Positions 38,249 through 43,402 of a stretch of 64,000 bases of DNA are shown one piece after another. Each line of letters begins with the position of its first letter. The stretch's first letter is position 1. Under the pieces are notes generated by a model that was not told the origin of the DNA, made no database searches, and was given only the letters and a program-made list of their open reading frames with translations. Location of the stretch: NCBI GenBank assembly GCA_947503575.1, contig CANNDZ010000001.1, positions 1,984,001 to 2,048,000 on the forward strand, written 5' to 3'. The translations under genes were made by a program, and so were the position numbers. The DNA is from an uncultured Kordiimonas sp. (lineage in GTDB: Bacteria > Pseudomonadota > Alphaproteobacteria > Sphingomonadales > Kordiimonadaceae).

Positions 38249-38431
38249 TCAGGCTTGAATATCAACACGCTCGCCCACACCGGGGCCAGTTGCAGATGGT
38301 TCAACTTCTTTACGTTCCACATCACTATCATTGGCTGCTTTGCGTTCTTCAGCAGCAGACTCAAGTGACCCAGAGCGACCTGATGCACCGATTGATTCCG
38401 CTGTCGCGGCAGTCGAGCTTTGAATATCCAC
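38249..38431 (-). CDS. putative ~60-aa hydrophilic small protein
   Basis: GTG start preceded by GGAG with 7-nt spacing; protein (V)DIQSSTAATAESIGASGRSGSLESAAEERKAANDSDVERKEVEPSATGPGVGERVDIQA; terminator downstream. Confidence 0.55.
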   Translation of the reverse strand: MDIQSSTAATAESIGASGRSGSLESAAEERKAANDSDVERKEVEPSATGPGVGERVDIQA

Positions 38432-38529
38432 TTTACTTCTCCAACATCGTGCATTCACCCATGACGCACGATTTCTCTCAGCAATTGATAATATAGATGA
38501 TCCGTGTCTAAACTTCCATGGAAAGCATA

Positions 38530-38618
38530 TTTTTTCTTTGTTTTTCAGGCGTTTCCGGCAATTTTTGCCTAGTTTTCGTACTTTTTTGATGGATTTTCGT
38601 AATTTTTTTGGCGGGTTT
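38530..38618. promoter_or_regulatory. phased T-tract array, predicted intrinsically curved DNA
   Basis: T-tract centres at about 38532.5, 38543, 38553, 38564, 38574.5, 38584.5, 38595.5, 38606 and 38617 (mean spacing ~10.6 bp). Confidence 0.75.
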
Positions 38619-38620
38619 GT

Positions 38621-39499
38621 GTGCAGAAAATAGATAAAATTTTACCAATCCGAATCATTTTGGCTCTTGTTCCAATCGGTCTTGCGGCGTGTGCAGCCCC
38701 GGCGGGGCAGCAAGCCAAAGACGATATTGGTCCGGTCACAGCGTATGCCCGCAACAGCCTTGCCGCCAAAAATCCTGAGGGGTTACTGCGTTTGGGCGAG
38801 GGATTCGAGCGCTCGGGTGATTTCATGGGCGCGCGAAAACTGTATGCTCAGGCAAAGCTTGCGGCCCCCGACTTGATTGACGCCCGAATAGCCTACGCCC
38901 GCGCCACCGCCAAGGCTGGTTTTGATGATGAGGCAGTCGCCGAACTGACCCTTGTTTTGGCTGATGCGCCCGACAATGCCGCTGCCATGGGCGTTCTCGC
39001 TCAGATACACGCAGACGCGGCGCGCTACGCCTCGGCCTATAAGTTATTGGAAAACCTATCGTCTCCAACACCTGATGAGGTAAACCTGAAAGGTAAGATT
39101 GCTCATGTGTTGGGGCAGCCTGCAGACGGGCACGGACTTCTGTTATCCGCGCTGGAGGAATCACCCGATGACGCTAGGGTGCTGGAGGCTGCAGCGCTTT
39201 CCTTTGCACTAAGTGGCGAGTATGCGGGCGCCGTCAGCTTGCTACGCCGCAGCATGGACCGCCCGACGGCGCGTAATGATGCGCAGAAAAGCCTTGCGCT
39301 TGTTTATGCGCTGTCAGGACAGCGGCAACTGGCGCTCCGTCTGGCCAGAGACGTGGTGCCTGCGCCAGAAATGCAAAGACTGGATGTTTATTTTCGGATA
39401 TTACCCCGTTTCAGTCCAGTAGAGCAGGCAGCAGCAGTGTTTTTCGACCGTTTGCCCGCGGACAGTGCTAGTCGATTATCCGGTCGTGCGACCAATTGA
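38621..39499 (+). CDS. TPR-containing lipoprotein (TadD-like)
   Basis: Lipobox GLAACA; repeated TPR helices. Confidence 0.75.
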   Translation: MQKIDKILPIRIILALVPIGLAACAAPAGQQAKDDIGPVTAYARNSLAAKNPEGLLRLGEGFERSGDFMGARKLYAQAKLAAPDLIDARIAYARATAKAGFDDEAVAELTLVLADAPDNAAAMGVLAQIHADAARYASAYKLLENLSSPTPDEVNLKGKIAHVLGQPADGHGLLLSALEESPDDARVLEAAALSFALSGEYAGAVSLLRRSMDRPTARNDAQKSLALVYALSGQRQLALRLARDVVPAPEMQRLDVYFRILPRFSPVEQAAAVFFDRLPADSASRLSGRATN

Positions 39500-43227: not shown

Positions 43228-43367
43228 GCCGTTTCCTGACTGACGTTTTTATGCGGTGATCTGATCACCAAGCGTGACGGTAGTAACAGCAGCATCTATG
43301 CCAACAGGAAAAACGTAATTAAATTAATGTGTTAATTGCTCTTTTGCGGTAAAGCGGGCGACTTTTC

Positions 43368-43402
43368 TGCCTATTTATTGCCAAATGCCCAATAATTAGG
43401 CA
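43368..43402. repeat. near-perfect 13-bp inverted repeat in the divergent glnK / TVP38 intergenic region
   Basis: TGCCTATTTATTG-ccaaatgcc-CAATAATTAGGCA (12 of 13 positions complementary). Confidence 0.9.

Follow-up and report, generated by a model that had tools for sequence, protein, structure and literature searches.

Helically phased T-tract arrays as a dispersed, strand-specific sequence family in a lineage of Kordiimonas

The stretch of 64,000 nucleotides of Kordiimonas DNA analysed here (the window) contains, at positions 38530-38618 of the plus strand, a helically phased T-tract array that is, judging by its sequence, one copy of a strand-specific, sequence-specific and lineage-specific dispersed family. 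As read from the genomes compared, the members of this family lie mostly between genes and are blind to gene orientation; their place and strand are kept between species, and the separators between their T-runs shift from lineage to lineage while the phasing is retained. The arrays are very probably a real element under selection, and the best overall explanation, held with slightly better than even confidence, is that they serve as chromosomal platforms for a putative nucleoid-associated protein.

The focal array is composed of nine T-runs, all of them with T on the plus strand, at 38530-535, 541-545, 552-554, 562-566, 573-576, 582-587, 594-597, 603-609 and 616-618, with a minor extra TTT at 537-539 (38,5xx numbering). 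The centres of the runs, from 38532.5 to 38617, follow each other at a mean step of 10.56 bp. A sequence-only reading of the window had given these nine centres and their 10-11 bp spacing exactly, and had correctly described both the 21-bp-period repeat TTTTCGTA(C/A)TTTTTT, which is present at 38573-587 and 38594-608, and the location of the site between a small minus-strand gene and the start of a TPR lipoprotein gene at 38621. Scored over 90 bp, the phasing of the array (20.6) is the strongest in the window; the maximum averages 15.0 in 60 Markov shuffles of the full 64 kb, the largest of which reaches 19.7, and permutation of the T-run blocks within the segment yields P ~5e-5. The repetition of runs at 10-11 bp, which characterizes curved phased A/T-tract DNA, is therefore beyond chance. 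The region with the next-best helical phasing of A/T runs, at 43310-43400 of the window (score 19.3), lacks the family motif and may be ordinary curved DNA.

Curvature was predicted with two wedge models, one based on the Bolshoy parameters and one on AA/TT wedges only, and in both of them no other 90 bp of the window is as curved as the focal array. Its predicted curvature is far over background and is higher than at any of 273,740 positions sampled from the rest of its own genome (~274 kb). For 30 arrays of this genome the median predicted bend is 156 degrees, versus 83 degrees at the 99th percentile of the sample, from which we infer that the arrays of the family would be intrinsically curved. 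The classic intrinsic bend proposed earlier thus agrees with the predictions, but it is not a lone one, since about 40 copies in the genome rule out a single local bend.

The TPR lipoprotein gene downstream of the array (38621..39499, plus strand, GTG start) is present in all close congeners. The small divergent gene on its other side (~38249-38431, minus strand) encodes 60 amino acids starting with (M/V)DIQ; its start region is conserved in the genus, and a Pfam search with its product gave no match. Genes were called by a simple codon-usage script. In the leader of this small gene there is a conserved hairpin (38446-38472, minus strand, approximately CGTGCGTCATGGGTGAATGCACG) with an 8-bp stem that covaries over 19 congeners, with 91.9% of cells paired and 19 two-sided changes versus 6.8 in shuffles. 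Neither the hairpin nor the surroundings of the focal array have a match in Rfam. Within the array, upstream of the TPR lipoprotein gene, lies the palindrome GGCAA-TTT-TTGCC (38557..38569), whose middle varies. It is kept in seven of the eight genomes of the subclade described below, including those without an array at this locus, and is probably a regulator site that predates the array.

A search of the same genome with 231 bp around the focal site matches three more places, all of which bear like arrays. The core TTTTCGTNNTTTTTT occurs there in 25 exact copies, versus 3 for a reversed control, and in 0-4 copies in each of 60 relatives. In copies aligned on this core, T peaks recur at intervals of 10.5 bp between -33 and +57, on one strand only, and strong (CCTTTTTTG) and weak (WWWWCGT) tracts alternate, which means that the true unit is 21 bp long, or two helical turns. 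The unit, approximately TTTTTTGGCGATTTTCGTCC, is strand-asymmetric and recurs in about 40 arrays of the genome. A sequence model of the family, built from 14 copies, detects 39 arrays at E<0.01 in 3.6 Mb, spread over all four large contigs, and matches the focal array at 38540-38611; the counts for this genome come from model searches and ~275 kb of sampled stretches. A wide taxonomic spread is ruled out by a search with the two-unit pattern over 84,980 species, which returned 49 single matches, mostly in unrelated or AT-rich genomes, and in one congener.

Most arrays are found between genes. Among the 26 best, 19 (approximately three quarters) overlap predicted genes by less than one quarter, an excess with a binomial P of ~1e-12 against 12% non-coding DNA, although intergenic DNA would be expected to hold more T-rich stretches in any case. 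By manual reading, the 20 intergenic arrays that were scored lie between divergent (7), convergent (4) and codirectional (9) gene pairs, and in the last group the T strand is the sense strand in six cases and the opposite one in three. Several arrays are located inside coding tails, for example that of tatB, where codon use could contribute to a few of them, and some directly behind stop codons. This mixture lends no support to promoter wrapping in a divergent intergenic region, which had been offered as a reason for the focal bend; of the architectural roles suggested with it, binding by a nucleoid-associated protein and a nucleoid landmark are, on the sequence evidence, among the readings that appear best supported. 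The tatB array (L066) occupies coding sequence for the protein's variable C-terminal tail; seven of the eight subclade genomes show phasing there at p<=0.02, and the tatB tail of G010 has adjoining 18-bp and 21-bp in-frame repeats. The genes that flank the arrays are a mixture of housekeeping and metabolic ones, such as CoA-transferase, lysA, tatB, infC, ybaB, aldehyde dehydrogenase and LysR, among others (tatB and dnaX were identified from their own sequences and neighbours). No common function was found among them, which excludes a regulon defined by shared function. In only 17 of 39 arrays is the T strand also the G-rich one, and a marker of replication strand, which should track GC skew, is likewise excluded. 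Along the 2.3-Mb main contig the arrays are spaced more evenly than random (CV 0.60 vs 0.94, P=0.006, for this one contig). Landmark-type sites would be expected in tens of copies, neutral towards gene context and non-randomly spread along the chromosome, and for the arrays this is a candidate role.

The family can be followed between species. Orthologous flanks were located with a chimeric protein query, and in 75 slots taken from G006, G003 and G018 the array score is above 10 on the expected strand in 25 and on the opposite strand in none, compared with 1 of 1292 and 1 of 376 background windows; the species are related, so the conserved slots are not fully independent. Six shared slots were extended to 11 further congeners and scored on T-run phasing alone, without the model. 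Phasing at p<=0.01 is observed in 22 of 24 cases in the array clade, in 11 of 21 in the sister group (G010, G014, G015 and G017, the last of which has almost no phased arrays at these slots) and in 4 of 40 in other congeners. Congeners outside the subclade are devoid of arrays at the slots compared, and in the tree of the TPR protein the species that carry arrays group as one clade (support 85/89). Where the lengths of the anchored slots change, the steps are mostly close to multiples of 10.5 bp (21 at the focal locus; -31, -52, -30, -1 and -13; -21, -20, -18, -20, 0 and -20), although those of L069 fit this rule poorly. At the focal locus itself, the array is kept only in the closest relative, G006, where it is shorter by exactly 21 bp. 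The unit at 38573..38593 (TTTTCGTACTTTTTTGATGGA) is common to both genomes, and the focal array equals its G006 ortholog plus exactly one 21-bp unit, at 38594..38614 (TTTTCGTAATTTTTTTGGCGG), both on the plus strand. More distant congeners have just the upstream T-runs and the GGCAA/TTGCC palindrome at this place, and the focal array itself is therefore young. Phasing in close relatives, on which the sequence-only reading had staked its bend, is thus lost at the focal locus except in G006, but family-wide it persists at many orthologous sites despite divergence of the sequence. In any one sister species, many arrays of the focal genome lack a partner, which indicates that single sites are dispensable.

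The separators distinguish two lineage dialects of the element. In the sister group they differ, with a unit near AGTTTGGTTCTGATTTTCGGC, while the phasing of the T-runs is kept at shared sites. A clade-A model matches G000 (40), G006 (16), G018 (14) and G003 (13), and a clade-B model matches G015 (15), G014 (13), G010 (10) and G018 (5) and no other genome, including G000; the models score in the clades that supplied their training copies, so that counts elsewhere are minimum values where other dialects are concerned. When each locus was left out in turn, the lineage of 32 of 33 arrays was assigned correctly from arrays at other loci. G018, the basal species of the array clade, matches both models and is apparently an intermediate between the dialects, to judge from these matches. 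That two dialects of one element occupy the same places implies selection, for which a co-evolving DNA-binding protein is the simplest agent, and a concerted shift of separators at kept sites is what one would expect if a single evolving protein read many sites. Neutrality or curvature alone can hardly account for separators that move together while place, strand and helical phase are kept. Probably, then, the arrays are read by a trans-acting binder, which for now is putative.

Two known proteins of this type are excluded as the binder. MucR is an H-NS-like nucleoid protein of alphaproteobacteria (PMC10746212, PMC11662661), and the Ros/MucR silencers resemble the putative binder of the arrays in that they occupy AT-rich DNA cooperatively and thereby structure the nucleoid. 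However, none of the eight genomes of the subclade into which all arrays fall (G000, G003, G006, G010, G014, G015, G017 and G018) has MucR/Ros (PF05443), whereas the 12 other congeners, which are the arrayless ones, all have it, mostly twice. H-NS was not found in any of the 20 genomes of the genus examined, and G000, G003, G006 and G018 gave no match to the cognate protein of either silencer. The loss of MucR is a single event in the tree, and its coincidence with the arrays is a lead rather than a correlation.

The main rival of an architectural role is a regulatory one, in which the arrays would be operators bound by a global regulator or silencer of transcription that substitutes functionally for the lost MucR and controls adjacent genes. 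The absence of MucR from the subclade suits this proposal, as do the mostly intergenic position of the arrays, several of which flank LysR, Rrf2 and LytTR-type regulators or divergent promoters, and the dialect shift, which again fits a co-evolving DNA-binding protein. We nevertheless consider it unlikely, though worth serious attention, because gene starts lie at no fixed distance or orientation, four sites are convergent, several are behind stop codons or in tatB, and the flanking genes lack a common theme. The position of the focal array within 90 bp before a start codon could also suggest a promoter UP-element, a transcription terminator or a U-rich RNA leader of the TPR gene. Such a role deserves practically no credence and is ruled out by the relatives of the array, which occur in every gene orientation without the fixed place relative to gene starts that a promoter element has, and by the lack of an Rfam match around the focal array. 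Curvature alone, with protein-free bends that pin the tips of plectonemes or aid packing, is quite improbable. Helically phased A-tracts have been proposed to aid nucleoid packing (Tolstorukov et al. 2005, cited in PMC3940949), while their physiological role in bacterial chromosomes has been called unclear (PMC3940949), and in vitro a supercoil tip is held in place by ~75 bp of highly curved DNA alone (Kim et al. 2018, PMC6301789). The strong predicted curvature of the arrays and the length changes by which their helical phase is mostly kept are in line with these proposals. The E. coli A-tract clusters, as summarized in PMC3940949, are similar in their dispersed A/T runs at 10-11 bp over ~100 bp and in their strong predicted curvature but have no strand or sequence consensus, unlike the roughly 40 arrays here, with T on one strand, a 21-bp consensus unit, conserved place and strand, and dialects. 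The pinning sites, for their part, share with the arrays a single strongly curved stretch of ~75 bp, but unlike the arrays they are promoter-linked, and they need neither dialect nor strand asymmetry. Bending does not require one-stranded T-runs, CGT/GGC separators or lineage-wide dialects.

A neutral or selfish origin, as 21-bp minisatellites or a short dispersed repeat propagated by slippage, gene conversion or transposition, would explain the exact 21-bp difference at the focal locus and the peak of copy number in one species. It is very unlikely, as the copies do not have the likeness of recent ones and are strongly diverged in sequence while retaining their phasing, orthologous sites keep strand and place, and the two dialects have moved in concert at shared loci. 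Spread by phages or plasmids is excluded as well, for the focal array has no match in a plasmid search and the two-unit pattern is matched in only 14 scattered viral contigs. DUS and USS uptake sequences show lineage dialects, and the core of the Pasteurellaceae USS is also trailed by phased T-tracts. Uptake of kin DNA by means of species dialects is still a far-fetched reading of the arrays, of which there are just 10-40 per genome, one to two orders fewer than the hundreds or more of short-core copies in those systems, and which are long, tandem and mostly outside genes.

An architectural rather than a regulatory role, which has about even odds, best accommodates gene-neutral placement and even spacing. 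SlmA, Noc and matS sites are short palindromes, present in tens of sequence-specific copies that are scattered irrespective of genes. The arrays are comparable to such landmark sites in number and in their independence of genes, but differ in being long, asymmetric and phased. Each copy is an array of 60-100 bp whose one-strand T-runs, one helical turn apart, make up 21-bp units of a strong and a weak tract. In the platform explanation, one trans-acting, sequence-specific protein would cover a single face of the helix every two turns, and the bend would assist wrapping or oligomerization of this putative binder. The job of the arrays would be chromosome organization, as a platform for a nucleoid-associated protein, an anchor of supercoil tips or domains, or a landmark, rather than the control of single genes. 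Somewhat more tentatively, they may represent a previously undescribed landmark system of the Kordiimonadaceae, which would have arisen in the MucR-less subclade, with 10-40 oriented phased arrays per genome and a lineage-specific putative nucleoid protein that has come to recognize a different dialect in each of the sister lineages.

For the biology of this group, a subclade without H-NS and MucR is a place to seek a replacement nucleoid protein, and sister species that are array-free at the same sites provide natural controls. With phasing, strand and place conserved while the separators drift in concert, a direct test of the function of phased A-tracts would be possible.
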